A stretch of DNA of 48,806 nucleotides from Candidatus Hydrogenedens sp. GTDB lineage: Bacteria > Hydrogenedentota > Hydrogenedentia > Hydrogenedentales > CAITNO01. Below are positions 24,117 through 47,932 of this stretch, in pieces; the first letter of the stretch is position 1; the number at the start of each line of letters is the position of its first letter. The position numbers were made by a program, and so were the translations under genes. The notes beneath the pieces are model-generated. The model had not been told where the DNA came from and made no database searches. It saw only the letters and a list, made by a program, of their open reading frames with translations. The DNA is taken from assembly GCA_012522755.1 (NCBI GenBank), contig JAAYJV010000114.1, positions 1 to 48,806 on the forward strand, read 5' to 3'.

Positions 24117-24144
24117 AAGCACAGCTCTTTTCAAGACTGTGCTT
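24117..24144 (-). terminator. rho-independent terminator after the Csx2-like gene
   Basis: The ends AAGCACAG and CTGTGCTT pair over 8 bp, with an inner TCTT/AAGA stem above a one-base bulge. On the minus strand the hairpin is followed within 4 bases by a run of five T. It touches the stop codon at 24143. Confidence 0.7.
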
Positions 24145-28293: not shown

Positions 28294-28345
28294 TGATTGT
28301 GATCGCATAGACAGTAGAGATTATTTGTGGAAGGGTTCTTCATTT

Positions 28346-29311: not shown

Positions 29312-29326
29312 GGGAGGGCCTCTATT

Positions 29327-29989: not shown

Positions 29990-29993
29990 ATTT

Positions 29994-31086: not shown

Positions 31087-32976
31087 TCAGAAAAAAGGCA
31101 CCGCTTCCGCCAGCTTTTCTATATCATCGACGTTGATTCTTGAACAAGGCAAATGTGTGGCAAAAAGCGTGTGCCACCCGGGGAAATCGTTTCGTTTCAA
31201 TAAGACGCTTGTCCTGAGAAGACCCTTCCTCCATCTCGCCAGCTCTTCTTGATCGTCCTGTAGCGCATGATAATATAATCTGGTAATCCCTCTCAGAAAA
31301 GTCACATGATTGATTTGATCTGCTTTACCAACAACCCGGCTGCTACGGGGATGTCGGATCCGTTCGCAATATGCCAGTCGTGTTTCCAAAGGATGAGCTT
31401 TGTTGCGGGCACAATTGAAATACAAATAAATCAGGACCTGTTGATAAGGAGAGCTTTCTGCGACCGTTGGTTCGTATGCTTCTCGCCGGAGCCAGGCAAT
31501 TTGAGTGTGCAGGCGTTCGCAGAAAAGAGCGTGGCTCTTGAAAGCAATTTCCGTTGTGCGAGGTGCAAAACTCCTTTCTGACTCTGTCAATAAACGCTCC
31601 GCCTCTTCCAGAAAAGTATCCTTTTCCACACCGTAGGCTGTCTCTGCTTTTCTCAACCAGGTATGAACCAGGTAATTTCTGTATTGCCCGGAATAATCCG
31701 TATTCCCAAAATCAGCTGTAGCTATGGCCTGTTTGTAAAAATACTGAGCTTCATCCACCTTCCCAAGGAAATAAAGGCTTCGGCCATAAGTGGCTTGAAA
31801 ATGTGCGCGCAGTGCAGGAGCCACATCATTCAGGTGTTTCAGATGCTCATCAAGAAAAGAAATTGCTTCTTCAGCGTCAAGACGGGCAAGAGCATTGTTT
31901 GCTTGTTCTGTCTGAAACTGTAGACAACTCTCTCGCCCCAAAGACAGCCCCTTTTCAGATCGGGATATGTTGAATCTTTTTGTTATCTGTGTTGCCACTT
32001 TCGCCGCTGATAAAACATACCCCTGGCTGTTCAGCAGCTGCATTTCCGCCAGGTGTATCTGAACTCTGTGATAATCGCTGATCCCGGAGTTTCCCGGAAA
32101 CCCCTTCAACCAGTTCTGGAACAATGCAGCATCACCAAAATTCAACGCTGTCCGACGCCTTTGCATCTCTTGAATAAGACGATTCATTTCTGTGATATGT
32201 GGCAAAGCGAGAAGACTCGTTTTTAAGCCGGGTATTTTTTCCACTAGCTCACTCACCGAAGCTATATAAATAATGGAGGAGAAAAACTTGTCAACTCCTG
32301 CTTTTTCCATATCAGTTTGATGACACCGGGGTAATATGGCTGAACGCCTTGGACCATACTCTCGCACAAACCCCTGCGCCTTTTGAATGATTTTATTCAC
32401 TGGCAAAAGACTCCCGGGGCACACGCTTCGCTCACAGAGTTCGCCACTGGAAAAAACGGGTCCTTTGAGAAAGCCTGATCCTTCCTGGCTTTGCTCTGCT
32501 ATTTCCCTGCACAAAGCGACTATCAATGGAAGCTGCAAACTTCTCCCACCAATTGTTTCCAAATGCACAGGAACCGAAAGAGAAATATCAAAGGCATATC
32601 GGAAAAGAATAGGCGCAATGGGCTGAGTTTCGCCAAGCGTCTTGGAAAACTCCTTTTGGATAAGACCTATCAGGCATGTAAATGACTCCCAGACAGAGGA
32701 GTCCTTGTTCTTTCCTGCAAAGCGACCGAAAGCATCGGAAATATGCCAGGTGATAGCGCGCTTTATTGTAAAGGGCACCATGAGACCAGAATCGCTTTCC
32801 GAGTCAACTACAGGAAAGACATGTTTTGGCTTGGATCTGATCTCTGCAAGAACAGAGCCTCTTTCTTCAATAAACCTGGGATTATAAGGGGCTATGTCCT
32901 GATAAAATTTTTCCAGGTAGGACAGATTTATAACGCTTTTGTTCTCTTCTTTGCGTCCCATAAGCAACTCAGCCAT
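31087..32976 (-). CDS. Lon-like (S16) protease domain fused to TPR repeats
   Basis: About 629 residues from the ATG at 32976; a GTG at 33036 and an ATG at 32961 are alternatives, and none has a strong ribosome site. Residues 130-217 follow the Lon protease fold: SVPVHLETIG, GRSLQLPLIVAL (Ser146, as in Lon GPSAG), PVFSSGEL (like MTGE), GSLLPVNKIIQKA (Lys199, like GGLKEK) and GPRRSAILP. The Ser-Lys dyad is therefore in place, so I call it active. There is no AAA+ domain. The remaining 400 residues are TPR-like helices. It is the last gene of the signalling run. Lon-type proteases work in some type III systems (CalpL), but no CARF or SAVED sensor is fused here. Confidence 0.65.
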   Translation of the reverse strand: MAELLMGRKEENKSVINLSYLEKFYQDIAPYNPRFIEERGSVLAEIRSKPKHVFPVVDSESDSGLMVPFTIKRAITWHISDAFGRFAGKNKDSSVWESFTCLIGLIQKEFSKTLGETQPIAPILFRYAFDISLSVPVHLETIGGRSLQLPLIVALCREIAEQSQEGSGFLKGPVFSSGELCERSVCPGSLLPVNKIIQKAQGFVREYGPRRSAILPRCHQTDMEKAGVDKFFSSIIYIASVSELVEKIPGLKTSLLALPHITEMNRLIQEMQRRRTALNFGDAALFQNWLKGFPGNSGISDYHRVQIHLAEMQLLNSQGYVLSAAKVATQITKRFNISRSEKGLSLGRESCLQFQTEQANNALARLDAEEAISFLDEHLKHLNDVAPALRAHFQATYGRSLYFLGKVDEAQYFYKQAIATADFGNTDYSGQYRNYLVHTWLRKAETAYGVEKDTFLEEAERLLTESERSFAPRTTEIAFKSHALFCERLHTQIAWLRREAYEPTVAESSPYQQVLIYLYFNCARNKAHPLETRLAYCERIRHPRSSRVVGKADQINHVTFLRGITRLYYHALQDDQEELARWRKGLLRTSVLLKRNDFPGWHTLFATHLPCSRINVDDIEKLAEAVPFF

Positions 32977-33085
32977 ATCGAAAACTGTATGCACTTTCAC
33001 GAAAAAGCCACAATGAGCCTGTCTGCAACAATTCACTGCGGCCGTCCGGGCTTATTCTGTACAATTTCATGAGAGGAACAAGTAT

Positions 33086-33742
33086 TTATCGATATCTTTG
33101 TCGCTGTAGCTTGCGAACCATGCCCCAAGGATTCATGCTCTTGAGGTTCCTGTGGCGTTGTGAGCCCGGAACAGTATGACGAAGCAACTTCGCAGCTGTC
33201 ACCAGCATTCTGTCTGTGGACACAAGAAAACAAGTCGTCTCGGGATTCTGCTCCGCCACAAGAATGGCCTCTTCAAAAATTGCCCCATCCATCCCATCAA
33301 GAAATTTCGGATCACTGGGATGAACAAAACTCGTACGGGCTCCTTTTCTCGGAATTTCTCGCAAATACAAATTATGGATGGGCTCAAGAACCCGGTTGGG
33401 AATACGCGATCCTCTTGGAATTTCCTTTTGCAGCGTAATATTGGATGCCGACAAAATAGGATGGAGCAATCGTGCTTTAAAAATAAACTTCCTGCTTTGA
33501 TACCAGCGCTCATAGTTTTCATGATCAATGTTTGTTTGAAAAAACTGGGCGCTGAATTCCAGAAAGGCATGAAAAGGTATGACTACTCGATAGTCTCCGT
33601 TAAGCAGATATTGACAAAAATTCTGAACCTGCTTATGAATATCATCTTCCTCAGAACCAATGGGCTTAAAGCCAGCCTCACCGCGTAAGGCCGAATAGAG
33701 TACGCTCGTATCCGTAATATAGATGTCTTCTTTCCGAAGCAT
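33086..33742 (-). CDS. PIN-domain nuclease
   Basis: 218 residues. The N-terminus has the PIN motif YITDTSVLYSAL, with the first metal-binding Asp at residue 11. An acidic residue follows at about 62 (IPFHAFLEF), then LDGMDGAIFEEAI, and then FLVSTDRMLV with the third Asp, which is the expected order of the PIN acidic quartet. PIN proteins are Mg-dependent RNases, often toxins. The gene is 50 bp upstream of the protease gene. It lies 87 bp after the response regulator, and GAGG precedes the ATG. No antitoxin of the usual small type is next to it, so control may come from the kinase system or the protease. Confidence 0.75.
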   Translation of the reverse strand: MLRKEDIYITDTSVLYSALRGEAGFKPIGSEEDDIHKQVQNFCQYLLNGDYRVVIPFHAFLEFSAQFFQTNIDHENYERWYQSRKFIFKARLLHPILSASNITLQKEIPRGSRIPNRVLEPIHNLYLREIPRKGARTSFVHPSDPKFLDGMDGAIFEEAILVAEQNPETTCFLVSTDRMLVTAAKLLRHTVPGSQRHRNLKSMNPWGMVRKLQRQRYR

Positions 33743-33829
33743 AAAAGTATTCCTCGTAAGTTAAGTTCAAAAACAGATGAACTGCCAATTTACATAAGGC
33801 CCTTCAACTAATCTCATGAAAGAATACCT

Positions 33830-34843
33830 TCAATCAGTCGGCTCTTCCAGATCTTCATCATCACCTTCATCGTCTGTATAGGCACAACGGTCATATTCTT
33901 CAGCCAAAGCAGAATAATCCACATATTTTTCAGCCTCATGAATATATTCGATGGCTGCTTTAAAGGTTTCCCAGCCATCGTACCAGTGAAAAGCCTGCTT
34001 CAAAGCATCTGTCACAGCACCCTCAGCATTGACTGCTCCGAGATTCACCAATTTGAAAGGACGGAGATTCACCAGATCGATAAGGACTCCTTTGGCACTC
34101 TCATCGTCTGAAATATCACAGGCAATAACCAGATGTGGGCGGGGCTGAAAAACGGCCAATTTTCGCAAATAAGGAATGTGGTGTACACTGAATTGTTTTT
34201 CAGCCACTACCACAGCATGATAATCTTCAGTGCTCATACGTTCGGGCGCATCTTTGATCGAAACAAAGTCGACACTGGCCAGATCGCCTACAACTGATTT
34301 CCACTGGGTGCGATCAAAGGGCATGCCTCCGGTTTCTACCACCAAGATTTTTCCTCCTTGGCGAGGAGAAGGGAGACGCAAATCATGAGTTACCGCTTCT
34401 TGCGCTTTACTCACCATATTTAACAGATTGTCAATCCCGCGGTCTCCTTTGGCAACATACCCGAAGGAATGATAATTGGCAAGTTTCAGCATGTCCTGAC
34501 TGGTTCCTGCGCCACTATATACAATGATGACACAGCCATTATCCAGTGATTTGTAGACTTGTGCCAGATCACTGCCACGATAGGCCTCCTGAATAGCCCG
34601 CGGACTGCCGTCCTCACCCTTTTGAAAGGCATCCGCCGTAATGACCTTATGCATATCCAGATCCATGATGAACAGGTCAAATATGGTGGATTGAAAACGA
34701 TCCAACGCATCCTGAAGAGTGGTCGTCACCGTTACTTCATGACCTTTCTCACGCAATTGCTCGACTGCATCAGCCAGATGCGCCGGTGCATTGTCGCTCA
34801 GCTCATCATCCATAAACAGAATGGACAGGCTTCGTTTTTCCAT
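33830..34843 (-). CDS. response regulator with two receiver-like domains
   Basis: 337 residues. The first receiver (1-140) is complete: acidic pair Asp12/Asp13, phospho-acceptor Asp61 (LFIMDLDM), Ser110 (VYSGAG) and Lys132 (AKGD). The second region (165-270, KILVVETGGMPFD onwards) resembles a degenerate receiver without the phospho-Asp. The tail is strongly acidic. There is no DNA-binding output domain, so it should act by protein contact. It follows the histidine kinase by 40 bp, with AGGAAG before the ATG, so the two form a pair. Confidence 0.82.
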   Translation of the reverse strand: MEKRSLSILFMDDELSDNAPAHLADAVEQLREKGHEVTVTTTLQDALDRFQSTIFDLFIMDLDMHKVITADAFQKGEDGSPRAIQEAYRGSDLAQVYKSLDNGCVIIVYSGAGTSQDMLKLANYHSFGYVAKGDRGIDNLLNMVSKAQEAVTHDLRLPSPRQGGKILVVETGGMPFDRTQWKSVVGDLASVDFVSIKDAPERMSTEDYHAVVVAEKQFSVHHIPYLRKLAVFQPRPHLVIACDISDDESAKGVLIDLVNLRPFKLVNLGAVNAEGAVTDALKQAFHWYDGWETFKAAIEYIHEAEKYVDYSALAEEYDRCAYTDDEGDDEDLEEPTD

Positions 34844-34883
34844 GACTCAACTTCCTTTCTCGGTTTCCTGTTTCTTGCAAAAC

Positions 34884-36317
34884 TTATAGATTAACTGTGA
34901 AGTCCATGATAAATTCAGCACCATGATCAGGCTGATTGTCCGGATCATAAATCAGCTTGTAGCCCTGCATAAGCATGGCTCGCGATGCCTGAGGCAAACC
35001 CAGGCCCCGATCGCTTTGAACCCCTTTTTCTGAAACATAGGCCTCAAAAATATTTCCAGCAATTTTTACGCCACCAGCAAAATCACGGTAAATCACCCTG
35101 GAATTCATATAGTCTACAATAAATTCACAGGGAGGATCGGGTATCGTTAACTCGCGGCGCACATAGGCCTCATCGCTGTTGGCAACCAGATTCTGAAGCA
35201 CGATCCCCATTTGGCCTCGCCCGAAACGCCATTTGTCAGGCGCACCTTGTCGTTTGATGGGCGCCCGGGCGAATAACGGCCTTAATACGGAAACATGTTC
35301 TTCAATAAAGGGAGCAATATCTTCTTCAACAGAAGAGTCGATACTTAACGAACCCACAATATTACCCGAAATCTCATGCAAATCGATCAAAGCCTGCAGC
35401 ACTTCGACCTCTGAACGAATGGCGGCGATATTCTGCTGAACTGCCTCGCCTTCCAGATGTTTGAAGCGATCCAGATACCCGCTGATCTTTCCAATGCGAG
35501 ATCGTGTATCATGACGGAATCCCCGAATCTGAAGGGTGGTTGTCTCTAAACGGCGGATATTGTTTTCCATCGTTTTGGCAAACTGACTCGTCGGATCATT
35601 TTCCAGAGATTTCTCAAGATATTTTCCTACAAGCGAAAAGCGCTCCTGATCTGTTGTATCCTGCTCTGAAAAAAAATAGGCCGTATCCGCCAGAAGATTA
35701 TAAACGCTGCTTCGCAGATGGGCAAAGTCTTTATCCTCTCCCAGTACGGACAAGAAGCTTTCGGCCAGAAAGAACACCATCTTATGAAAATTGCCACGAC
35801 CGACATTACGTCGTACTTTTTCCAGAACTTGCATCCAACGGTCGCAAAGGTCTCGCTTTAACACCCGGCCCTGTGTCTTTTCCAAAAATTCCGCCAACAT
35901 TGTCTGCAGCTGGGTTGCTACCCTGTTCAATGTATCAGGATCTGTTTCCTCCCAGGGAAGAAGAAATGACAAACGATTGCTAAAGAGAGTTAAAATAACG
36001 TCAGGAACAATCTCTGTCTGAGGAACAGACTGAATCACTTCCATATAACGCTCATAGTAGCTCTGTTCTTCTTTAATTTGATCTTTGCTGTGAGACCCTT
36101 CCATATCCTTATAAAGTGAATGGATACTGGTCAAGATGCGCCACAAACAAACCAGACGATCTTTAGGAGTGATTTCCGAGGGGTCCGCCTCTTCATACTT
36201 GACCAGAAGTTGTTTATTAATAGCCATTGCTTCTGAATAGTTGTGTGCTTTAAAATATGACAGTGCTTTCTGGCCTAATGTTGCAAATGGATCTTCCTTC
36301 ATTTCTTCTGTACTCAT
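34884..36317 (-). CDS. soluble histidine kinase with TPR-like sensor region
   Basis: 477 residues, no membrane segments. The first 250 are helical, probably TPR-like (ALSYFKAHNYSEAMAINKQLL). The dimerisation helix carries the phospho-acceptor in GFRHDTRSRIGKI (His269). The ATPase domain has an N-box VLQNLVANSDEAY (Asn376, Asn380), G1 box RDFAGG (Asp412) and G2 box SDRGLGLPQASRAM (Gly438, Gly440). It should phosphorylate the neighbouring receiver. Being cytosolic with a protein-interaction front, it probably senses an internal partner. It lies 3 bp after the pseudokinase stop, in the same operon. Confidence 0.85.
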   Translation of the reverse strand: MSTEEMKEDPFATLGQKALSYFKAHNYSEAMAINKQLLVKYEEADPSEITPKDRLVCLWRILTSIHSLYKDMEGSHSKDQIKEEQSYYERYMEVIQSVPQTEIVPDVILTLFSNRLSFLLPWEETDPDTLNRVATQLQTMLAEFLEKTQGRVLKRDLCDRWMQVLEKVRRNVGRGNFHKMVFFLAESFLSVLGEDKDFAHLRSSVYNLLADTAYFFSEQDTTDQERFSLVGKYLEKSLENDPTSQFAKTMENNIRRLETTTLQIRGFRHDTRSRIGKISGYLDRFKHLEGEAVQQNIAAIRSEVEVLQALIDLHEISGNIVGSLSIDSSVEEDIAPFIEEHVSVLRPLFARAPIKRQGAPDKWRFGRGQMGIVLQNLVANSDEAYVRRELTIPDPPCEFIVDYMNSRVIYRDFAGGVKIAGNIFEAYVSEKGVQSDRGLGLPQASRAMLMQGYKLIYDPDNQPDHGAEFIMDFTVNL

Positions 36318-36319
36318 CC

Positions 36320-37303
36320 TTAAAATGACCTCCGGCTGGTTGTATAATTACTCTTTTTATTCTTTTGGGAATGATGTTTTTGAAAGGGCCTTTTCTTAAT
36401 CTCCCGGCCGGTCAGCAAGGTAAGAAATTCATCAGGCGTTTGAGTACGCTTTTTCGGGTCAGACAGCAACGCAAACTTGAGCGTTCGTATTAAATCCGTG
36501 GACAACTTGACCTTTCTTTTTTTCTCAATGGCAACCAGATGTTCAATAACCTGACGCTCATTCTGGATAGGCTCTGTAATCTCTGCTCCCATCAGCCGCA
36601 ATAGCAGAATACCCAGAGCAAAAACATCCGTTGCCGGAGTAAGTATATCTGTTGAAAAACACTCCGGTGCGCAATATTGTTTTTCCAATACAAGATGGCC
36701 TTTATGGGGATCGAACTGATTACCGTGTTTGCCAAATCGACACAGCGAAAAAAACTCTGCAAGGATAAAAGTTCTTGTAGTCCGTTGAAGACGGAGGTTT
36801 TCAGGCAAGACCTGACGAACGGCGATACCATGGTCGTGTAAGGCACGCATTGTAAATGCAACACTGTAAGAAACTCTCTTCAGGTAAGCCTGAATAGCCC
36901 CTATATTTGCATCCTTCCAAAGATGTACGAGAGCTGTATCGCTATAGTGGTAGACACAAAAGGGCATTGTTTTGCGCAGGTCTTCGGGTATGTTACCGTC
37001 GGTATTGTGAAAGAAGAAGCTATCAATACATTCCGGCAAGCCGGCTACATTTTTGGAGGCACACAGCCAAGCCTCTTCCAGTTGACTCTTGAGGCTCAGC
37101 ATATGGAGCGGATCATCCATACGATAGAAGTCCGGTGTGGCACCATAGACAATCCGACTTAATGGTTCTTGTAAACGAGTGTCCTCCAATTCAAAACAAG
37201 TAAGCTTATCTCTTCCCTCCCACTTTTTTAACTTCCAGTCGGTGTCAATAACATTGCGCCCCTGTTCAAGCGACTTGATTATCATGTTGGACTTGTAGTA
37301 CAT
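36320..37303 (-). CDS. pseudokinase (Ser/Thr kinase fold, catalytic residues lost)
   Basis: 327 residues. The fold is recognisable in the C-lobe: the catalytic loop reads HGIAVRQVLPENL, where the HRD Asp is Gln164 and the following Lys is Leu166; the DFG is EFF (183-185). YCAPE (activation segment end) and DVFALGILLLRLMG (helix F) are intact. The basic C-terminus (KRPFQKHHSQKNKKSN) may bind nucleic acid or acidic protein. It should be unable to transfer phosphate and may bind or regulate its neighbour, the active kinase, 18 bp upstream. A strong AGGAGG precedes the ATG. Confidence 0.82.
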   Translation of the reverse strand: MYYKSNMIIKSLEQGRNVIDTDWKLKKWEGRDKLTCFELEDTRLQEPLSRIVYGATPDFYRMDDPLHMLSLKSQLEEAWLCASKNVAGLPECIDSFFFHNTDGNIPEDLRKTMPFCVYHYSDTALVHLWKDANIGAIQAYLKRVSYSVAFTMRALHDHGIAVRQVLPENLRLQRTTRTFILAEFFSLCRFGKHGNQFDPHKGHLVLEKQYCAPECFSTDILTPATDVFALGILLLRLMGAEITEPIQNERQVIEHLVAIEKKRKVKLSTDLIRTLKFALLSDPKKRTQTPDEFLTLLTGREIKKRPFQKHHSQKNKKSNYTTSRRSF

Positions 37304-37321
37304 AATTCCTCCTGCATTGAA

Positions 37322-38311
37322 TTATTTCACCTTGGAGAGATCCTTCCATAACTCATCAAGAGTCTGAAAGCGATCCTTTGGCTTGTCCTCTGTACACTTG
37401 TCAAGGATATCAGTCAAGGTCTTCGAAACCTTGACTTTTGACAATTTAATACAGTGCTTCAAGGTCATTCCTATGGTATAAATGTCCCAAGTAGGTGCAA
37501 CAGCTTTTTCCTGATTCAACGGCACTGCTTTGGCTTCGGGCGGTGCAAATTCTTCTGTAAAGACTCCGCCATTCAAAATCCGGTCGTCTGAAGAGCGGGC
37601 CGCCACCCCGCCGAAATCTATGAGACAGTATCGCTTTTCTTTGGGCGAAATCATGATATTGGCTGGTTTCAAATCCTGGTAAATAAAATGAAGTTGTTTG
37701 TTATCTTGCTTTGTTTCTCGATGAAAGGCTTGAAGGGTCTTAACCAAATATCGGGCAACAAAACTGAAATATTCTGTCGGTTTATTGGTAATTTGATGGG
37801 GTGTAAGTTTTCTGCCACAAAATTCATCCAACTGAACCCCATCAAAGAAGCTCAACACAAGATACACCATTTCCTGCCAGCAAGCCGGGTCTTCATGGTA
37901 AAACTCCTGGCCTTGAGCCTGGTGAGGTCCTCGAATGGTCGGGTTGATATCCTTGAGCCAATCAATGAGAATAGGAATTCCACTGATCTTCCGCATTTGG
38001 CCATGAAGAAGAAGATTGCGTTCCATGCCATAACGTACATTCACTTTTGCAACAAGATCCGGCAGTGCCGCATTGTTACGCACAAGTAAATCTTTGTCTT
38101 CCAGAAAACCTGTCTTGACTAAAACCCGGCGATTAAAAATCTTTCGGTCTTGAGCGGTAAGCAATACGCCGAAGCCACTGACAGTCAAAATGGATTTGAT
38201 CTCAAAACGTTCCGCGAGCACATGTGGGAAACGCCAGACTCTTCCTTTGAAATGAAACTCGATGATTTTCCGTTGAAAAAAATTGTCTGAGTAAACGCGA
38301 CCATTACTCAT
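37322..38311 (-). CDS. active Ser/Thr protein kinase
   Basis: 329 residues. All key sites are present: a Gly-rich strand (TVSGFGVLL), the ATP-anchoring Lys66 in VLVKTG, the catalytic loop IYQDLKPANIM (Asp213, Lys215, Asn218), DFG at 232-234, and APPE at 256-259. The kinase is soluble and lacks sensor domains, transmembrane segments or PASTA repeats, unlike typical PknB proteins. Its start overlaps the FHA gene stop (ATGA), so it is translated with the phospho-Thr reader. It is probably opposed by the PP2C phosphatase in the same operon. Confidence 0.9.
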   Translation of the reverse strand: MSNGRVYSDNFFQRKIIEFHFKGRVWRFPHVLAERFEIKSILTVSGFGVLLTAQDRKIFNRRVLVKTGFLEDKDLLVRNNAALPDLVAKVNVRYGMERNLLLHGQMRKISGIPILIDWLKDINPTIRGPHQAQGQEFYHEDPACWQEMVYLVLSFFDGVQLDEFCGRKLTPHQITNKPTEYFSFVARYLVKTLQAFHRETKQDNKQLHFIYQDLKPANIMISPKEKRYCLIDFGGVAARSSDDRILNGGVFTEEFAPPEAKAVPLNQEKAVAPTWDIYTIGMTLKHCIKLSKVKVSKTLTDILDKCTEDKPKDRFQTLDELWKDLSKVK

Positions 38312-39549
38312 TTATGTATCCTCCTCAGTTGCAACGACAAGCCTCCAGGTAATTGCAAGAGAACAGCCGGATCCCAGGCTATCCAGTTTCCCGGAGAAAT
38401 CCGTGTACTGTTTTCATCGGCAAAATAGACGCTGTTTCGGCCTGTGTTTTTTACACAAACAGCATCATCCATCCAATAAATATCCAATTGCTGTCTGGAG
38501 CACTTCTTTTCCTCATCACGGGAGAAAAACTGGTCAGATAGTGACAAGTCGCAACGCACATCCCGACCCACTGTCGTTGTTCGGTCTCGTGCCAACTGCG
38601 CCTCAAGGCCTGAAACCAGGACATTGTTACGCAAAAGAATCACTTCGAAATCTCCGTCTAAAACAGGAAGCACTTGGGTGTTCTGAGGCGAAACTGGCAC
38701 TGGAGCCGGTTGCAAATCCGGTGCTTGCGGAATATTATGAGCAGGAAAGTCTGGAGTTTTTATCTCTTGGAAATCTTTTCCAACCTGAAAATTCTCTTGT
38801 ACTGGAGGTGCCTGAACGGACTGAATCGGATCTGGTGCAGGGCTTACCACGGGTCCTGGCTGAATAGGATCCGGCACAGGCACCGGCTTTGACTGAAGCG
38901 AATCTGCAGCTATTCTCTCCGTTTGCATGATATCCGGGTGGTTCAACGCTTCCCAAAGTTCCATGGGCGGTTCCTTCATGGAATTCTCCCACCCTTCCGC
39001 CGCTGTCTGCGGTACGTCCGTGATCAGCTGAGATGCCGCCGTATCGCCTTGTGTCTGGGGCTCAAGAGTACGATTCTCAGAAAACGCCTCCGTCCCAGCC
39101 CTATGACCCTCAGCATCACCACCATTCTTTTGCGAAGCGACAATATCAAAAGGTCTTTCCTCCGGCTTTTCAACTTGTGTTGCTTTCTCTTGAAATACAG
39201 CAGACGCAACAGCTGCTTCAGCATGTGCCTTTGAAGGTACAGATCCACCCGGTTGATCTTTTGATGGTGTTGATGAAACGGATACTTCAGTTTTTACACG
39301 CACCAGATATCTTTCCGATTTCACTTCCTGGCCCGTATCACGCCTTATTATCTGTACATTCAACACGTAAAAACCAGATCGTAAGCTTGCACTGGCCGGA
39401 TAGAAAATCCGAAGAGCCTCTTCTTCAGTCTTCTCGACATAAGGCTCCAGCTCTTTCTGACTTTGCCAGACCATCTCGCAACCATCCGGTATATCCAACT
39501 TCAAGACGAAGGGACTGTCAGCACTGAGACTTATTTTGTGTTCCTTCAT
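38308..39549 (-). CDS. FHA-domain protein with N-terminal beta domain
   Basis: 413 residues. Residues 1-90 look like an Ig-like beta domain (FVLKLDIPDGCEMVWQ, SGFYVLNVQIIRRD). Residues 90-295 are a disordered Pro/Gln/Ala-rich linker with many Thr and Ser. Residues 300-413 form an FHA domain, with TTVGRDVRCDLSLSD (Gly328-Arg329), CSRQQLDIYW (Ser351-Arg352) and VKNTGRNSVYF. FHA domains bind phosphothreonine and would read the work of the kinase. The final His of the SxxH motif is replaced by Gln/Leu. AGGAGAG precedes the ATG. Confidence 0.85.
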   Translation of the reverse strand: MKEHKISLSADSPFVLKLDIPDGCEMVWQSQKELEPYVEKTEEEALRIFYPASASLRSGFYVLNVQIIRRDTGQEVKSERYLVRVKTEVSVSSTPSKDQPGGSVPSKAHAEAAVASAVFQEKATQVEKPEERPFDIVASQKNGGDAEGHRAGTEAFSENRTLEPQTQGDTAASQLITDVPQTAAEGWENSMKEPPMELWEALNHPDIMQTERIAADSLQSKPVPVPDPIQPGPVVSPAPDPIQSVQAPPVQENFQVGKDFQEIKTPDFPAHNIPQAPDLQPAPVPVSPQNTQVLPVLDGDFEVILLRNNVLVSGLEAQLARDRTTTVGRDVRCDLSLSDQFFSRDEEKKCSRQQLDIYWMDDAVCVKNTGRNSVYFADENSTRISPGNWIAWDPAVLLQLPGGLSLQLRRIHK

Positions 39550-39557
39550 GATCTCTC

Positions 39558-40889
39558 CTAAAAATCCGCCCCCAACATGGAACTGCTGGGTTGCTTGCGA
39601 GCCATTTGTGACTGCGCCTGCGAGGTGCTCTGACTCAATTTATTTAAGTCGGCCTGAGTCAGAAGACCATTTTGCTGAAGCTGCCGCAATTGCGTCTCAT
39701 AGCCAGCCACCAGATCCAGACGATTCAAACTCTTCGCCCGTTTACACATGGAATCCAGGATAGCCCCTGTCCGTTTCCAATCGTTGGCCTGGGCCGCCGC
39801 CTGCATTTCTCCTTCCAACTTCATCAACGTTGCCGTCAGATACATATCATCAACATCGCTGCGCCGCACCTCATCATCAGGATTATTGGAAAAACTCAGA
39901 AACAGAGCATGTTTCGCTTCTTGAGAACGCAATTGACGAACAGGAACATCATAGGTCAGCCGTACACGGGCGAACAGGGAGTTGGATGCACTGCCTGAAG
40001 GAATATCCACGCCGGCATGGAGAACAAAATTATAAATATCCTGCTGGGCCAAAGCAGACAAATGCACTCTGAAGATTTTCATTTTCTGCACAGTACCCTC
40101 AGGAACACTTAAGTTGTGCTGCTGCGGGGTAGCCTGATAAAATTCCACGTCTCGAAAATGACTGGGCACCTCCAAGGTAAGGACTGCATTGGAAATCAAT
40201 GATTGTTGCGCTGTTCGCAGTGATTCTTCAAACAAGCCCGCTGCTTCATCAGGACTGGGCAGGTGATAGGCCAGACCACCGGAGGCTTGTGTAAAGCTCA
40301 GCATCAGATGGTGATCATAATCGCTGCCCACTCCAAAGCAATCCACCGTAACCCCTGCTTGTGCCAACTCACGATTGATTCGATGGGCAACATCTATCTT
40401 TCCACTCGTAGCATTACCGTCTGTTAAAAAAACAACTCGCTTGCTCGGTTGTTTCAGATTCCGTATCACCTGTTGTGTCTGCTTGAAGGCTTTTTCAAAA
40501 TTCGTCATTCCCCCATGGTCCCGGATTTTATCCAAACCAGAATTGATTCCATCCAAATCCGATGCGGGAACATCCTCCAGTTCAGTATAGGCCTTCGTAT
40601 CAAAGCAAATCAGACTGATGCGATCTCCCCGATTGCAATGACGAACCATTTCTTTGGCCGCTTGAATGACACCCTCTCTTTTGGAAATGGACAGTCCGTC
40701 AGTAAAAGGATCATCCATGGAACCACTTGTATCTACTACGAGCACCACATCACAAAGTGAAACCGGGTGCTGTTGCACAAAGGATTCAGATGTTTCTATA
40801 CGAAAGCGGGCATTGACAGGCTCATTACTGCTGCCGCGCATCAGATTGTCCCGACTTAAAAAAGCATCTACCAGGATTTCTTCACTCAT
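39558..40889 (-). CDS. von Willebrand factor A domain protein
   Basis: 443 residues from the ATG with AGGG upstream; an earlier ATG lies inside the phosphatase gene. The vWA domain is complete: VVLVVDTSGSMDD (Asp53-x-Ser-x-Ser metal site), then GGMTNFEKAF and VVFLTDGNATSG. After it comes a beta-rich region (LTLEVPSHFRDVEF, FRVHLSALAQQDIYNFVL) and then a C-terminal helical tail rich in Gln and Ser. The protein is soluble, without signal peptide. vWA proteins paired with AAA+ ATPases usually bring substrates or bind Mg-dependent partners. It overlaps the PP2C stop by 8 bp. Confidence 0.88.
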   Translation of the reverse strand: MSEEILVDAFLSRDNLMRGSSNEPVNARFRIETSESFVQQHPVSLCDVVLVVDTSGSMDDPFTDGLSISKREGVIQAAKEMVRHCNRGDRISLICFDTKAYTELEDVPASDLDGINSGLDKIRDHGGMTNFEKAFKQTQQVIRNLKQPSKRVVFLTDGNATSGKIDVAHRINRELAQAGVTVDCFGVGSDYDHHLMLSFTQASGGLAYHLPSPDEAAGLFEESLRTAQQSLISNAVLTLEVPSHFRDVEFYQATPQQHNLSVPEGTVQKMKIFRVHLSALAQQDIYNFVLHAGVDIPSGSASNSLFARVRLTYDVPVRQLRSQEAKHALFLSFSNNPDDEVRRSDVDDMYLTATLMKLEGEMQAAAQANDWKRTGAILDSMCKRAKSLNRLDLVAGYETQLRQLQQNGLLTQADLNKLSQSTSQAQSQMARKQPSSSMLGADF

Positions 40890-42588
40890 GCTGGGTCCCT
40901 TTCTCCTCATTCTGGTCATGTCGCACATGTACAATATTTACAGTGATGTTATCATTGGAACGCCTGCTGTCCGCCAGCTCAACAAGGGCGCAGGTCATTT
41001 CCCGAACAGTTTTTGACTCTTGAAGATGATCCGTTATCACCCTTTCAAGTTCATCCAGAGCCTTTATTTCATCGTAAGCATCAATACTGCGGATCAATCC
41101 GTCTGTTGCAAGAAGAAGGACATCACCATCTGACAGTTGCACAGTCAATTCAAAAGCCTCGTTATTGCGTGGCTTATAGCTCTCACCATCAAAAAATGCA
41201 CCGCACACACGGGTCAAAGCATCGGGCTTATTCTCTTTGCCATCACTGTCTGCTCCTGGACTTGTCCCACTTTCCATCGCTACTGTGTGATCTACACTGA
41301 GCTTCATCAACCGGCATGTCGCCGCGTGATACAGAAGAGCAGGTGAATCACCCACAGATTGAACATACGCCCGGTTCCCCACAACCAGTGCTACGGTGAA
41401 TGTGGAACACATGGGATTGGATACAGCCTGTTCCGGGGGATGTGATTTTGCCAGATCATTGAGTGCATCGGCTATCTCCAGATCCGCCTCTTTAAACAGA
41501 GCCCGTAAGGTGTTATGGGCTATCTCCCCCATTTGAGCTTCGTTATGCTGCATCTCTTTCATTTTCTCGTGCAACATGGAACGGTTCGCACGACGAACCA
41601 CATGTGCTATACACTCTGAAGCTTCCTGACCTGATCCCAGATCAGCCGTGGAAACACCATCAGCAACAAAAATAAAGTGTCCACCACGGAGCAGGCTGGT
41701 GCCAACATGATCCTCATTATCCGGATTCGCCTTATATTTGCCTGGCGTCGAATAGTGATGCTGTTCTCTTGAATACCCGGGCGAAAAGACCTCGGAGAGA
41801 TGCAAGGGATTAGCTTTAAAGCTTTGCATCAGAAGCAATGAAAAGTCCCGGCAACAGTTCTTTTTTGAATACTTGGAAGGATCAGAGAGCATCCCCTTGA
41901 ACAAGTCCACCGTTCCCGGCGAAATGTGCGGCTTGTAAAAGCGAAGCCTTTCCAGCTGATCCAATAATGACCGTTGTGTTCCAGAACGGATGCCCAACCA
42001 GGCATCAGCGAGAAAAAGAATCCATCCATAAAAAACACAGGCTTCCGGGGAAAGACCTGAAAGCGGTTCATCGCGCTGCAAGGAAGGATGTAGGTAGATT
42101 CTTGCAATATCCCGCTGGAAGCTGCTCAGTTTTTTGCTGTGAGTGCCCGCTGCCAGAAGGGACAAGAAACATTTTGATACCATGAGTTTCAGATCAGGAG
42201 AAACGAAAAAACCTTCTGGAAAAAATACGACAAGCATTTCTTCCTGCCCCGATTGAGCCTGCTTATCCAGAAAATCGGCAAGTCCCAATACAGGACGCAT
42301 GGAATCCCCTTCTATTTTTGCAGGATTCAACGATTGGACATACTCCTGCAGTGGGGTCCCTTCACAAAACAGATCTGTGGAAAAGTGCTCCTCTTTCAGA
42401 CCCGGCCAGCCCTGAGGTAAAAGAACATTCAGCAATCCGGCATGCAATTCACGCTGGCAGCACTCACGGGTCTCTTCACTCAACCCACGCCCGAAAAGCG
42501 CTGGAAGACTCTCCAGAGCTTTTGAAAGCCATTCATCCTGGTCAGAATGTACGCCCTTTAAAGAGCTTTTTGTCTTGCCGATTCCCAT
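40882..42588 (-). CDS. PP2C-family protein phosphatase with long N-terminal extension
   Basis: 568 residues. The phosphatase occupies about 285-560, with NEDHVG, FVADGVST (Asp310-Gly311), SVGDSPALLY, LLLATDGLI and SNDNITVNIV, which supply the metal-binding Asps. The first 280 residues are unassigned and helical; they may be a regulatory or docking part, and are longer than in most bacterial PP2Cs. It should remove phosphate from Ser/Thr targets of the kinase. The start lies inside the end of the coiled-coil gene, and GAGGAG precedes it. Confidence 0.9.
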   Translation of the reverse strand: MGIGKTKSSLKGVHSDQDEWLSKALESLPALFGRGLSEETRECCQRELHAGLLNVLLPQGWPGLKEEHFSTDLFCEGTPLQEYVQSLNPAKIEGDSMRPVLGLADFLDKQAQSGQEEMLVVFFPEGFFVSPDLKLMVSKCFLSLLAAGTHSKKLSSFQRDIARIYLHPSLQRDEPLSGLSPEACVFYGWILFLADAWLGIRSGTQRSLLDQLERLRFYKPHISPGTVDLFKGMLSDPSKYSKKNCCRDFSLLLMQSFKANPLHLSEVFSPGYSREQHHYSTPGKYKANPDNEDHVGTSLLRGGHFIFVADGVSTADLGSGQEASECIAHVVRRANRSMLHEKMKEMQHNEAQMGEIAHNTLRALFKEADLEIADALNDLAKSHPPEQAVSNPMCSTFTVALVVGNRAYVQSVGDSPALLYHAATCRLMKLSVDHTVAMESGTSPGADSDGKENKPDALTRVCGAFFDGESYKPRNNEAFELTVQLSDGDVLLLATDGLIRSIDAYDEIKALDELERVITDHLQESKTVREMTCALVELADSRRSNDNITVNIVHVRHDQNEEKGTQHE

Positions 42589-43145
42589 TGTTTCTCCTCA
42601 TCTTCAAGTTTCTGTTTCAAACACGCCTCTATCTTGTCTATTCTTTCTACGCATTCTTTTTCCAATTCTTTCAAGTGCGCAGCATCCGAAGAGGCCCGCT
42701 TCGACATGCTTCCCAGAACTTTGAGATAAGGCCGTGTCTCAGAGGCAAAAGCGGCCACAGAGTCTCGCAGCGCTGAAAAACGATTGAGCACCTCCAGCTT
42801 TTTAATCTCTTCACTGACAGAATCAATATCCCTTTGCAGCAGTTGTAACTGATGCTGATAGTCACTTCGCTTTTCGAGCGCCAACTTCAATGTCTCATTC
42901 TTTTCATATACAAGCCGGGAAAACAATTCAAGTTGTTTGTTCACCTGCTCATCCCCATCGGAAAGAAAAGAAATGCCTCGGAGAAGTTTAACCAAAGCTG
43001 ACAAAAGCAATATCAAATCTTCTGATGAGAAGCTGCCGTCCAGCTGTGCCAGAGAAGATACACACTGTTCGAAGTACTCCGCCAACTGTCGGGCCGCAAG
43101 GGAAGCTGCAGCTACATTCGCACTGTCGCTATTACCAGTCACCAT
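42558..43145 (-). CDS. small coiled-coil protein
   Basis: 195 residues, not recognised. Residues 75-120 and 150-190 form charged coiled coils (for example VERIDKIEACLKQKLEDEEKQW), and the N-terminal 60 residues are more hydrophobic and Ala/Ser-rich. It overlaps the PP2C start by 31 bp, and the AAA+ gene ends 31 bp upstream of it, so it belongs to the operon core and may link the ATPase and phosphatase. That role is inference. Confidence 0.7.
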   Translation of the reverse strand: MVTGNSDSANVAAASLAARQLAEYFEQCVSSLAQLDGSFSSEDLILLLSALVKLLRGISFLSDGDEQVNKQLELFSRLVYEKNETLKLALEKRSDYQHQLQLLQRDIDSVSEEIKKLEVLNRFSALRDSVAAFASETRPYLKVLGSMSKRASSDAAHLKELEKECVERIDKIEACLKQKLEDEEKQWESARQKAL

Positions 43146-43176
43146 GAAACAAGCCTGCTCTTTCTACTACATCCGT

Positions 43177-45684
43177 TTAGCATAACTGTAATCCCAGATC
43201 TTCGGCCGACAAAAAATCAAGATGCTCATCAGACAAGCCCTTGAGACGACTGGCATGACGATCCAGACATTCCTCATAGAAGTTCCTTACCGTACGCGCA
43301 TTGGCAAAGGATGCCCTGTTATGAATTTTCATCTCTGAAAAGATCCGCTGCAATGGTTCTGTCAAAGAATCGCCGGGCCAGTGCATGGAATCCTCTGTCA
43401 CAAAAAAATCAAAGATTTCTATCATTTCTGCCGCAGTGTAATCCTCAAAGAGAATCCGATTGCGAAAACGACTTTCCAGACCGGGATCGGCTTGTAACAT
43501 CTGATTCATCTCCTTTTCATAGCCAGCAAGAATAATGATACACTTTTGGCGATTGTTTTCTGAAAAGGGAACCAGAACCTCAAGAACATCTCTGCGAAAA
43601 TCGCTGCCCACACCAGCTGGATTCAGTTGATGGGCTTCATCAATAAAAATAAGCTTGCCCAAGCCCGCCTCCAGAAATGCTGTGGTATTTTCACGCGTCT
43701 GCCCTACAAAACCTTTCACAAATGAAGCCGCTGATTGCTCGTGAATATCCGGACTCGCCAGTAATCCCATGGAAAAAAACTGACGGGCTAGGATCCTCGC
43801 AACCGTGGTTTTCCCTGTACCTGGATTACCCGAAAAAATAAAATGACCCGAAAGAGAACAATTGGGACTTTCCGTCTCTTTCATACGGCGCTGTTTCACT
43901 TCTATACGATCCATCAGCGTAGCTATCTTTTCTTTTACCTGACCCAATCCGATCAACGCATCAAGAGCCTCCACAATACCAAGATCACTGGTCTCTATGC
44001 TCTCAACATATCGCACATATTCCTTGGGAAGATGACCCTTGTTTACTGATGCCGCCCCTTCGGCTACAGCTTTTTCAACCATTTCCCGCGCAATATTCTC
44101 CAGACTGCGGGCATTGGCATATTCATCATTCCTATTGCCATAAATACTGTTGCACAACTGCGGCAACAGACTGTCCAATTCTTCCTCCAAAGGCAAGTTT
44201 TCCGAAAGACGCAACAGCGCATTGCGCAGGATCTGCTCCATCTCATCCGGCTTGTAATCTTCTATTTCAAGAATCTGATCAAAGCGATCCCGCAATCCCG
44301 CATTGGCCGTCAGAAGGCGATCCATGTCACCAGGATAGCCAGCCATCACTACAGCCAGCCGCCCAGTCAGATCCGTCATGGCCTCAACCAATGTATCCAA
44401 TGCCTCCTGACCGAAACTGTCGCTTTCATGCTTATATAAAGCATAGGCATCATCGATAAACAGAATCCCGCCCAGAGCCCGTTCTATGCAGGCACGTGTT
44501 TTTGGAGCAGTAGTGCCCACATATTGCCCCACAAGATCCTGACGGGTGACCTTCACAACATGACCTAAAGGAAGCAACCCGCATTCTCTATACAAGGCAC
44601 CCAAAAGCCGACACACTGTTGTCTTCCCGGTTCCCGGATTTCCCGTCAGGATCAGATGAAGATTCAATTCCCGAATGCGGGGATCAACAGCTGGCGGAAC
44701 CAGACGTAAAAGATCCTGACGCCCTTGCTCAGCAACAACGCCCTCGGGTAAACGCCTGAGAAAACTGTTTTGCTTTCGGGCGATATATTCTTTGACCACA
44801 TCCAAACCCACCAATGATTTCAAAAGTTCGCTAGCATTACGCCCCATGTCATCTCCCACAACAGATTGGACTGTATCTGTCGAAAGCTCTTTTTCATCTA
44901 GAAGCTGCCCCAAGGCATTCAAGCTGTGATTATGGCGCTTGAGACTCGAAGTAAGTTCACGAACACATAAATCCCAATCCTCCCAGACAATCTCCAATGC
45001 TCCACGTAAATACTGGGAGAACAGCCAGTGCTCAACTTCATCTACATCTGGAGGGCCGATAAAACGCGCTTGAGCCAGACCAGGCCCATCATTGCACTGC
45101 AATAAATCTGACCAGCCCAACCGCTCCAGATGGCGGCCTGGATCCCCCGGAATATTCAACAAAAGAATATTTTTGTTGTCTGTAGGCAACTGACCCAGTT
45201 CATTCATGACCAGTGCATTAAAATCCAGACGCAACTGAGAATTGTGTTCTAAAAGACTGGATAGATGCAGATCGGAAAAAACAACCGCCGTACGCACTTG
45301 ATTAGCAAGTATCTCTCTAACCGTATCTACCAATTGACCTATCTGAGTCATATCTGGAAAACACCATCGCGTACCAGCAGGATCAGGCATTGAGACTCGT
45401 GGACGCGTCAAGCGGATACCCAGTGAATGACCTACTAATCCTGCTCCTTGGTTATCAAGAGCCTGTGGCGCACAATGTCTCAGAGACTGTTCATCAAAAA
45501 AATAGCATCCCCGATGCCCGAAAAAGGCGATGCATTCAAAACCATGACGACGCAAATGATCAAAGATAATCTCATCAAAGCGCAATTCCACACCAGTGAA
45601 ATGCATAAAGCGATCACTCGTGTTACCATGAGTAACATGCAACCGCGCACGGTTGGAAGAGAATGGAAAGTTCTCACTCATCAT
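43177..45684 (-). CDS. tandem-AAA+ CbbX/SpoVK-type ATPase
   Basis: 835 residues, first gene of the signalling run. AAA domain 1 has Walker A GNPGTGKTT (348-356) and Walker B ILFIDDA (407-413, Asp in place of the usual Glu), so hydrolysis may be weakened. AAA domain 2 has Walker A GNPGTGKTT (619-627) and Walker B LIFIDEA (678-684). Both carry the CbbX/CfxQ-type pore segment (VGQYVGTT and VKGFVGQT). The first 290 residues include a strand-rich part (TAVVFSDLHL, NILLLNIPG) that may be a degenerate P-loop domain. Related proteins remodel Rubisco or serve type VII secretion. Here it likely remodels a partner of the vWA or FHA protein. Confidence 0.88.
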   Translation of the reverse strand: MMSENFPFSSNRARLHVTHGNTSDRFMHFTGVELRFDEIIFDHLRRHGFECIAFFGHRGCYFFDEQSLRHCAPQALDNQGAGLVGHSLGIRLTRPRVSMPDPAGTRWCFPDMTQIGQLVDTVREILANQVRTAVVFSDLHLSSLLEHNSQLRLDFNALVMNELGQLPTDNKNILLLNIPGDPGRHLERLGWSDLLQCNDGPGLAQARFIGPPDVDEVEHWLFSQYLRGALEIVWEDWDLCVRELTSSLKRHNHSLNALGQLLDEKELSTDTVQSVVGDDMGRNASELLKSLVGLDVVKEYIARKQNSFLRRLPEGVVAEQGRQDLLRLVPPAVDPRIRELNLHLILTGNPGTGKTTVCRLLGALYRECGLLPLGHVVKVTRQDLVGQYVGTTAPKTRACIERALGGILFIDDAYALYKHESDSFGQEALDTLVEAMTDLTGRLAVVMAGYPGDMDRLLTANAGLRDRFDQILEIEDYKPDEMEQILRNALLRLSENLPLEEELDSLLPQLCNSIYGNRNDEYANARSLENIAREMVEKAVAEGAASVNKGHLPKEYVRYVESIETSDLGIVEALDALIGLGQVKEKIATLMDRIEVKQRRMKETESPNCSLSGHFIFSGNPGTGKTTVARILARQFFSMGLLASPDIHEQSAASFVKGFVGQTRENTTAFLEAGLGKLIFIDEAHQLNPAGVGSDFRRDVLEVLVPFSENNRQKCIIILAGYEKEMNQMLQADPGLESRFRNRILFEDYTAAEMIEIFDFFVTEDSMHWPGDSLTEPLQRIFSEMKIHNRASFANARTVRNFYEECLDRHASRLKGLSDEHLDFLSAEDLGLQLC

Positions 45685-45895: not shown

Positions 45896-45994
45896 GACAT
45901 ATAAAGTCATTCAAAAAAAACACTGAAAGCAGTACCTTGCACTTGCAGCCGATACGATAACATCGATCGACGGGCGTTGAAAGGAATTGCCGTC

Positions 45995-47932
45995 ATGTTC
46001 ACTCGAAGCGAAATTGAACTCTCGTGGGAACAGGTTAGCCAGGGAGGGCCTGCACCAGGCGTTGATGGCATTGATATGCCGGCTTTTACAGCGGATCTGG
46101 ACGCACAACTCGATGCCCTCACCGCAGACCTTCAGGCACAGCGATACCAGCCACAACCTTATCGCGTCATAGAAGTACGGAAAGCTTCCGGAGGCATCAG
46201 ACGTATCGCCATTGCTACCCTCAGAGACCGTGTCGTACAAACCGCAGCACTCCAACAAATCACCCCCATCCTGGAACCTCATCTCACCTCAGCATGTTAC
46301 TCCTACAGAACCGGTATAGGAGTCCATGATGCCTTGCAGGCCGTGGCCTCCATACGCGACAATGGATGGCAATGGGGAATCTGTGCCGATATAGCACGCT
46401 TTTTTGAATCAGTTCCTCATGCTCCGCTCCTCCATATGTTGACCCGTTACGGCATCGACGCCACTGTCATACAAATGATTCATCGGTGGCTTATCACGCC
46501 CTTTGCCATCGGAGCCGTCCAGGAGATCAATACTATTGGACTTCCCCAAGGACTGCCCCTCTCTCCCCTCCTGTCAAACATCTATCTGACTCCTTTTGAC
46601 AAAGAAATGATACAAAATCAGTGGGCGCTCATCCGATATGCCGACGATATGGCTATATTCTTTCCCCATCCAGCCTGGGCCGATGAATGCGAAAAAGAAA
46701 TGGAAGAAAGCCTCGATGCCCTGAGATTGTCACTGGCACGTGAAAAAACAAAACGCGTTTCCTTTGAAGAAGGGTTTGAGTTTTTAGGTGCACGATTTCA
46801 TAAAGAAGAACTCATCCCCGCACTGCCACACCCCTACGAAAAAGACCAGACACCACCGCCAAGAAAAGAAAGACCCGCACCCATTCAAACCATTCCCCAT
46901 GTGGAAATGCGCACGCTATATCTTCAGGAACAGGGAAGCACACTCAGCGTCAACAATGGCCGCTTTGTCATCTTTCGAAAAGATGAGAAACTCATGGAGG
47001 TACATACACATAACATAGAACAGATCTTTATATTCGGAAGAGTACAAATGTCCACAGGAGCCAGAGCATATTGCCTTACCATGCGCATCCCCGTTTGTCT
47101 TTTTTCGTCCTATGGAAAATACTTCGGTATTCTTCGACCCGCCGACGACATCCCTGTCGCTCTACGGCGTGCACAATTCACACTCGGTGATGATCCTGAA
47201 GCAAGGCTGAACTTTGCAAAAGCGGTCGTCGCAAACAGAATCCGTGGGGAACAGAAACTGCTGCAACAACATGCCAATCACTATCCGGACAGCTCTTTGG
47301 ATGAAATGATTGGAAGACTGTATCAAGCCCGAGAAAGAATAAAAGAGGCCCAATCCGTAGACCAGTTGCGCGGAATGGAAGGAGCTGCCGCTGCTGCATT
47401 TTTCCATGGCTACGGAATTTGCCAGCGAGGCGCACTCTCCTTTACCCAAAGACTCCGAAGACCGCCCACAGATCCCATCAACAGCATGCTCAGCTTCGCC
47501 TATACACTCACTTTTTATAATATACTCTCCTATCTCCACGCCAGAAGGCTCGACCCGGGCCTTGGCATGTATCACGAACCACGAACAGGACACCCCGCCC
47601 TCGCAAGCGACCTGGCCGAGGAGTTTCGCGCGCCAATCACTGAAAAACTCGTCCTGTCTCTTGCAAACAGAAATCAATTCGGATCCGAAGACTTTACCTA
47701 TGATATAGACTATGCCCATGAGGCAAATCCAAACAATCCCCCCTGCAGACTCACCGATGATGCCAGAAAAAGATTTTTAGCAGCCTATGAAGAACATCTA
47801 TTGAAAAAAGTGCCACACCCGGACACCGTCGCAACGGTCACCTGGAGGCGCGTTATGGATCTGCAGGTTTTGCGATTGCGCAGATGGATAGAAGGGGCCG
47901 TTGACAGCTATCAACCCTATGAAGGAAAATGA
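45995..47932 (+). CDS. cas1: reverse transcriptase-Cas1 fusion
   Basis: 645 residues from the ATG with AAGGAA 9 bp upstream; a TTG six codons earlier is less likely. The N-terminal group-II-type RT (about 1-270) has ADIARFFESV (Asp132), GLPQGLPLSPLLSNIYL, YADD (215-218) and EFLGARF. The Cas1 integrase follows from about 305 (MRTLYLQEQG), with Glu462 (GMEGAAAAAF), His527 (YHEPRTGHPAL) and Asp539 (SDLAEEFR) as the metal ligands. RT-Cas1 with Cas2 can capture spacers from RNA through reverse transcription. No Cas6 domain is fused at the N-terminus, unlike in many RT-Cas1 proteins. All catalytic residues of both halves are present. Cas2 follows after 6 bp. Confidence 0.95.
   Translation: MFTRSEIELSWEQVSQGGPAPGVDGIDMPAFTADLDAQLDALTADLQAQRYQPQPYRVIEVRKASGGIRRIAIATLRDRVVQTAALQQITPILEPHLTSACYSYRTGIGVHDALQAVASIRDNGWQWGICADIARFFESVPHAPLLHMLTRYGIDATVIQMIHRWLITPFAIGAVQEINTIGLPQGLPLSPLLSNIYLTPFDKEMIQNQWALIRYADDMAIFFPHPAWADECEKEMEESLDALRLSLAREKTKRVSFEEGFEFLGARFHKEELIPALPHPYEKDQTPPPRKERPAPIQTIPHVEMRTLYLQEQGSTLSVNNGRFVIFRKDEKLMEVHTHNIEQIFIFGRVQMSTGARAYCLTMRIPVCLFSSYGKYFGILRPADDIPVALRRAQFTLGDDPEARLNFAKAVVANRIRGEQKLLQQHANHYPDSSLDEMIGRLYQARERIKEAQSVDQLRGMEGAAAAAFFHGYGICQRGALSFTQRLRRPPTDPINSMLSFAYTLTFYNILSYLHARRLDPGLGMYHEPRTGHPALASDLAEEFRAPITEKLVLSLANRNQFGSEDFTYDIDYAHEANPNNPPCRLTDDARKRFLAAYEEHLLKKVPHPDTVATVTWRRVMDLQVLRLRRWIEGAVDSYQPYEGK

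Follow-up and report, generated by a model that had tools for sequence, protein, structure and literature searches.

Genes of a putative phosphorylation-controlled AAA+ module are interleaved with a type III-D CRISPR locus in Candidatus Hydrogenedens

The DNA analysed here, referred to below as the window, is an entire contig of 48,806 bases (JAAYJV010000114.1) from Candidatus Hydrogenedens sp., whose 4.0 Mb genome assembly is fragmented into 199 contigs. A type III-D CRISPR locus occupies 9.4-48.8 kb of the window. It contains a III-D Cas10 and III-D Cas7/Cas5 subunits (PADLOC Cas10, Cas7_IIId and Cas5_IIId), as well as adaptation genes (RT-Cas1 and a cas2-sized ORF) and an array with three repeats. 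The GC content is 0.45 throughout 8.3-48.8 kb and 0.53 in 1-8.3 kb, a contrast that matches the expectation for an acquired island. The CRISPR genes and array are:

9381..10748, minus strand: CARF protein with a PD-(D/E)XK nuclease, Card1/Can2-like (PADLOC CARF_PDDEXK, 4.5e-18)
10756..11097, minus strand: ring nuclease of the Csx16/DUF1874 type (STIV_B116-like, 1.7e-12; Csx16, 1.7e-13)
11137..13278, minus strand: Cas7, III-D (PADLOC, 4.9e-45)
13899..15383, minus strand: Cas7, III-D (PADLOC, 3.1e-94)
15398..15928, minus strand: Cas11-like small subunit, named by position alone, without a family match
15925..17682, minus strand: Cas7-Cas5 fusion, III-D (PADLOC Cas5_IIId, 3.7e-48)
17682..19397, minus strand: Cas10, III-D (PADLOC Cas10, 8.9e-104)
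19413..21650, minus strand: Cas7, III-D (PADLOC Csm3, 1.3e-71)
24143..25414, minus strand: Csx1, a CARF-HEPN ribonuclease (PADLOC, 7e-64)
45977..47932, plus strand: RT-Cas1 fusion (RVT_1, 2.1e-31; Cas1, 2.5e-81)
47939..48220, plus strand: cas2, named by the position and length of the ORF
48580..48806, plus strand: CRISPR array of three repeats and one partial repeat, cut by the contig end

The nearest solved relative of the Cas10 protein is Cas10 8s9t (E 4.7e-76). The palm motif of the window's Cas10 reads AGDD instead of GGDD, with both aspartates retained, and a Pfam scan gave no match to an HD domain. Because the locus encodes CARF effectors together with a ring nuclease of a cA4-specific family, it probably signals via cyclic tetra-adenylate. 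Scanning viral contigs with the three spacers and the repeat gave no useful match. Adjoining Csx1 is an 812-aa protein (25540-27978) in which a cold-shock-like start, a DUF3800-like YIDES stretch and C-terminal TPRs can be seen by eye; Pfam gives a weak TPR match and nothing more. Three overlapping or closely spaced plus-strand ORFs without a known family follow at 28274-31082. Another type III-D Cas10 operon, a divergent one without the module described below, is present in the same genome (G000:C20:13746-14972; L195/L196). Outside the CRISPR island, at 643-4353, are two tandem paralogous genes with three stretches that are 75-80% identical at the DNA level.

Between the type III-D effector operon and RT-cas1/cas2, where the initial annotation had placed an eleven-gene run, 31087-45684 is indeed taken up by 11 minus-strand ORFs, spaced -53 to +87 nt apart:

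43177..45684, minus strand: AAA2, a tandem CbbX-type AAA+ ATPase (Pfam AAA, 1.2e-33, in two stretches; AAA_lid_6)
42558..43145, minus strand: coiled-coil protein (weak coiled-coil matches only)
40882..42588, minus strand: PP2C phosphatase (PP2C_2, 2.6e-11; Stp1/IreP, 5.1e-17; metal-site motifs)
39558..40934, minus strand: vWA protein with a DxSGSM motif (VWA_2, 4.7e-15), kin to the vWA proteins of cyanobacterial cassettes
38308..39549, minus strand: Pro-rich protein with a C-terminal FHA domain (FHA, 3.9e-5, exceeding the cut-off)
37322..38311, minus strand: Ser/Thr protein kinase (Pkinase, 3.6e-13; VLVK with a VAIK-like Lys, YQDLKPAN and DFG)
36320..37303, minus strand: pseudokinase (Pkinase, 8.3e-11), without the catalytic Asp and DFG
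34884..36317, minus strand: histidine-kinase-like protein with a helical N-terminus (motifs only: H269, N380, D412 and GLGL, as H/N/G-box)
33830..34843, minus strand: receiver-like protein (Response_reg, 2.7e-6, 27.9 bits, below the cut-off of 30.2)
33086..33742, minus strand: PIN-like nuclease, tentative (PIN_4, E 0.019, 15.7 bits, below the cut-off of 21.9)
31087..33036, minus strand: 649-aa protein without a family match, read earlier as a Lon-like protease with TPRs

Not all of the protein identities first proposed for this run fared equally well. Those of the AAA+ pair, PP2C, vWA, FHA and the two kinases are supported by Pfam matches above curated cut-offs, and motifs agree with the assignment of one kinase as active and the other as a pseudokinase. 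The PP2C protein has complete metal-site motifs and an N-terminal region of ~280 aa without a recognised family. AAA2 matches PF00004 plus AAA_lid_6 best, and its nearest relatives are tandem CbbX-type proteins. The proposed two-component pair consists of a sub-threshold receiver protein adjoining a kinase recognised by motif only, with no HisKA or HATPase match in Pfam. The AlphaFold2 model of the PIN-like protein is unreliable (pLDDT 42). As for the protease, the 649-aa protein matches no Lon domain in Pfam, NCBIfam or PADLOC and no PDB Lon sequence at E=10, and the AlphaFold2 model of its Lon-like N-terminus has a pLDDT of 35. A Ser/Lys-like pattern is visible by eye, and the protein may have a remote Lon-like fold. 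It had no relative across 147 genomes, and AAA2 was likewise absent from relatives. Plasmid searches with the PP2C and receiver proteins gave no match, and viral contigs scanned with PP2C and AAA2 yielded nothing useful. Domain searches across the eleven genes returned neither a CARF nor a SAVED match; ~280 aa of the PP2C protein and the greater part of the 649-aa one belong to no recognised family.

The unit as originally drawn proved too narrow, since partner genes of AAA2 lie at 21665-23654, within the cas operon:

22293..23654, minus strand: p453, a coiled-coil protein with the N-terminus MSGxK, homologous to six cyanobacterial proteins encoded beside AAA2 homologues
21665..22300, minus strand: radical-SAM protein of the NrdG/PflA-activase type (Fer4_12, 6.5e-22; NrdG, 3.2e-18, below cut-off)

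The p453 gene is the first of the cas7-cas10 operon and the radical-SAM gene the second, and all genes point in one direction. They overlap by 8 nt, and the gaps from radical-SAM to cas7 and from cas7 to cas10 are 14 nt and 15 nt. AAA2, at 43.2-45.7 kb, lies some 20 kb from this pair (21.7-23.7 kb), so the three genes are not together in one place. They are on the plasmid of Calothrix PCC 6303, where homologues of radical-SAM, p453 and full-length AAA2 stand side by side. The Calothrix AAA2 protein (31.5% over 97%) is the only plasmid protein that covers most of AAA2, and it shares the N-terminal domain. Calothrix also provides the best plasmid relative of the radical-SAM protein; a tree groups the two (85/92), weakly, as the window branch is very long.

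A full-length AAA2 homologue occurs in 6 of 291 genomes of cyanobacteria, the phylum that contains the Calothrix genome and the genome G114 discussed below. The p453 gene accompanies it at all six loci and the radical-SAM gene at five, the contig ending beside AAA2 at the sixth; no cas genes were found at any of them. All three proteins of the window are homologous to this set, and the seven p453 proteins align end to end, each starting with MSGxK. From this co-occurrence and alignment we conclude that p453, radical-SAM and AAA2 are, by homology, a conserved triad, of which two members are in the cas operon of the window and AAA2 is in the island. A promoter motif common to the p453 and AAA2/RT-cas1 intergenic regions was sought, and none was convincing. 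Kinship of p453 to an MSGPK protein from Aristaeella was also considered, and a profile comparison did not support it. In three further loci (G000:C71, L155; L019; L021) an AAA ATPase gene accompanies a radical-SAM gene. L019 has DUF1257 and DUF2997 genes between the two, and L021 a DUF2997 gene; these are possibly the C-terminal part of p453 as separate genes.

We then asked how often the module accompanies CRISPR. RT-Cas1 was used to scan ~85,000 species genomes, and the best 80 RT-Cas1/Cas1 loci, examined at E 1e-4, contained no relatives of AAA2, p453, radical-SAM, vWA or PP2C beside CRISPR. Their only kinase/PP2C/vWA/FHA run (L105) was not accepted as CRISPR-linked, since the RT beside it lacks Cas1 and resembles those of group II introns. 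The nearest RT-Cas1 identified (48% identity, same order) comes from a 50-kb contig whose 4-50 kb part lacks a comparable island. Cas10 occurs at 28 other places in 386 genomes, of which we read 24 with as much as 20 kb of sequence on either side, in many cases cut short by contig ends; none contained the triad, PP2C or vWA, one had a kinase at a distance and one a weak AAA match. A radical-SAM match 15 kb from Cas10 in G160 runs into stops and overlaps an adjacent anaerobic-ribonucleotide-reductase-like ORF, and was set aside on that account as an ordinary NrdG.

Away from CRISPR, kinase, PP2C, FHA and AAA+ genes do recur, with or without radical-SAM and vWA, in an Aristaeella plasmid and in the genomes G114, G333, G323, G372 and G145. 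This co-occurrence of kinase, PP2C, FHA, vWA and AAA+ genes bears out the suggestion that they form one module. The Aristaeella plasmid (L015) encodes a kinase, an MSGPK coil, FHA, radical SAM, AAA, PP2C and a second kinase. The fullest counterpart outside CRISPR spans ~20 kb in G114 (G114:C1:2032437-2051810; L157, L220) and comprises vWA, FHA, PP2C, FHA, radical SAM, four kinases, a p453-like protein that starts MSGSPK and a ClpB-type AAA, without cas genes; the same genome has a III-D Cas10 1.3 Mb away. The remaining cassettes, in G333 (L167), G323 (L169), G372 and G145, also lie without CRISPR. No locus was found to combine a kinase cassette with the exact Calothrix-type triad; the closest approach is G114, where the AAA is ClpB-type and the p453 relative remote. 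Nothing in the other kinase-cassette loci corresponds to the histidine kinase, receiver, PIN and Lon-like genes.

A related triad is part of a conserved operon on plasmids of Leisingera, Polaromonas, Moellerella, Acinetobacter and Photobacterium (L016-L018, L020, L022), which encodes an SF1 helicase, a PIN protein, a ~375-aa coiled-coil protein, a ClpB-type AAA ATPase and a radical-SAM protein. PADLOC classes the helicase as Mokosh MkoA-like (checked for L016) but offers none of its models for the PIN protein, the coiled-coil protein or the radical-SAM protein, and the operon looks like an unnamed plasmid-borne defence candidate. Profile comparison identifies a remote p453 relative in these operons (probability 81-86%).

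Several described systems share parts of this gene set. The TerY-type triad consists of vWA, PP2C and a Ser/Thr kinase in one run, linked to TerD/TerC/TerB genes. The window has the same three together, but it lacks Ter genes and has a separate AAA+/radical-SAM/coiled-coil core. Among the main window ORFs scanned, the only match to a Ter family was a vWA-TerF-like model, on the vWA protein, and no T6SS structural family was found, in agreement with the initial statement that secretion and Ter genes are missing. Kaur et al. 2020 (PMC7159879) described conflict systems centred on GAP1-N2 GTPases, the third theme of which, kinase-PP2C-vWA, likewise encodes an active kinase, an active PP2C and a stand-alone vWA together. 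As published, that theme is restricted to actinobacteria. Such systems have TRAFAC GTPase and GAP1 genes; neither was recognised in the window, where the ORFs scanned gave no GTPase family match. Kaur and colleagues also described a vWA-MoxR system in which an effector gene is of the radical-SAM type. Compared with the vWA-MoxR ternary systems, the AAA+ protein of the window is nearest to the CbbX type rather than MoxR, and no VMAP match was obtained. The Calothrix plasmid and the five other cyanobacterial loci encode full homologues of the three core proteins, but instead of the kinase/PP2C/FHA/vWA cassette they have Hsp70 (several) and GTPase-like genes (some), and they lack CRISPR.

Among type III systems, CalpL/CalpT/CalpS, with a cA4-activated Lon protease (PMC11229360), resembles the window in the possible presence of a Lon-like protein, but in the window neither a SAVED domain nor a sigma or anti-sigma gene was detected. 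In its text, that 2024 survey of type III effectors does not bring up phosphatases, AAA+ or radical SAM; histidine kinases come up solely in the remark that a receiver-domain effector has none alongside it. Closest in setting are the vWA-related systems with kinase and phosphatase genes beside CRISPR reported by Altae-Tran et al. 2023 (PMC10910872; UAS-7, 87, 91, 100, 129, 139, 149 and 155), which reduce the novelty first claimed for a type III locus with such a set. The passage concerned outlines the vWA, kinase and phosphatase combination in one sentence and mentions neither the radical-SAM/coiled-coil/AAA+ triad nor insertion into a cas operon; the window locus could be one of these UAS groups. 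Our literature searches found no paper describing the p453/radical-SAM/AAA+ triad, which is not proof of absence.

Taken together, these observations favour a stand-alone phosphorylation-controlled AAA+ module that was recruited into one type III-D locus, with shared expression, a reading to which we assign a probability of roughly 0.6. Two core triad genes lie in the cas7-cas10 operon, and the AAA+ gene stands first in the phospho-island, beside RT-cas1. Counting against recruitment are the single sighting of the CRISPR association, in a fragmented assembly, its absence from the 80 RT-Cas1/Cas1 and 24 Cas10 loci, the lack of a convincing common promoter motif, the failure to find a kinase cassette beside the exact Calothrix-type triad, and the histidine kinase, receiver, PIN and Lon-like genes that other cassette loci do not share. 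Of the alternatives, the one that survives best is a dedicated CRISPR output arm, in which target recognition by the III-D complex would switch the kinase/PP2C module and release the PIN nuclease and the protease, killing or silencing the infected cell. The position of the island between effector and adaptation genes, p453 and radical-SAM in the cas7-cas10 operon, and the vWA-MoxR-VMAP systems coupled to CARF/SAVED and vWA systems with kinase and phosphatase reported near CRISPR (PMC10910872) are all in its favor. We nevertheless consider it rather unlikely: homologous modules occur without CRISPR, the locus already has cA4-type outputs in Csx1 and the CARF-nuclease, the run has no detected CARF/SAVED domain, and the protease is unsupported.

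Less likely again, the run would be an independent neighbour: a self-contained system for defence or stress, housed in the same genomic island as the CRISPR locus, with p453 and radical-SAM brought before cas7 by a rearrangement without functional meaning. The initial annotation had itself named homologous runs mostly away from CRISPR, with this one a chance neighbour, as speaking against its proposal. On the first point, every homologous run found elsewhere lacks CRISPR, and the CRISPR relatives lack the module; the absence from the best 80 RT-Cas1 loci and from 24 Cas10 loci, and the GC content common to the cas and module blocks and unlike the flank, as in an acquired island, also fit an unrelated neighbour. 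On the second, however, the cas7-cas10 operon begins with two AAA+ partners, in a tight arrangement with 14-15 nt gaps that would bring an unrelated system under cas regulation. The interleaving of the module with cas genes makes a chance neighbour unlikely, even though the CRISPR link is a single case, which in turn speaks against an established accessory of CRISPR. That a chimeric assembly fused a CRISPR contig with an unconnected locus is highly improbable: the genome is in 199 contigs and a contig end falls in the array, but module members lie at both 21.7-23.7 kb and 43.2-45.7 kb, GC is uniform and cas genes stand at both ends.

Building on the gene content, homologies, split triad, operon spacing and kinase/PP2C motifs observed here, we infer a scheme for the biochemistry, trigger and output of the recruited module. 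The core triad (p453, radical-SAM and AAA+) and the kinase/PP2C/FHA/vWA cassette would make up a modular phosphorylation-controlled AAA+ system, which the placement of p453 and radical-SAM at the head of the cas7-cas10 operon would have partly fused with the III-D locus. The kinase, predicted to be active from its motifs, and PP2C may together determine how far a client protein is phosphorylated, possibly the vWA protein or the coiled-coil one, and the FHA protein would read the result, with the vWA and coiled-coil proteins serving as a scaffold. AAA2 might then remodel the complex and free or activate an effector, perhaps the PIN-like protein, while the radical-SAM enzyme could modify a partner, possibly p453 at its conserved MSGxK start. 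Since the run revealed no sensor domain for cyclic nucleotides, coupling to CRISPR would come through shared expression or contact; the domain searches for CARF and SAVED lend no support to coupling of the run through cyclic oligoadenylate. An unlikely but far-reaching extension is that the phosphorylation-switched AAA+/radical-SAM module is a branch of type III signalling separate from cyclic oligoadenylate, in which the III-D complex, expressed together with the radical-SAM/coiled-coil pair, steers the kinase/phosphatase switch and the AAA+ protein frees nuclease effectors.

The locus suggests, short of proof, that phosphorylation signalling has been wired into CRISPR defence. If the coupling is real, type III CRISPR would use protein phosphorylation and AAA+ remodelling besides nucleotide messengers. 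The p453/radical-SAM/AAA+ triad itself recurs with kinase cassettes, with Hsp70 and, as a remote p453 relative, with helicase and PIN genes on plasmids, and it looks like a widespread uncharacterised module that is worthy of a survey.
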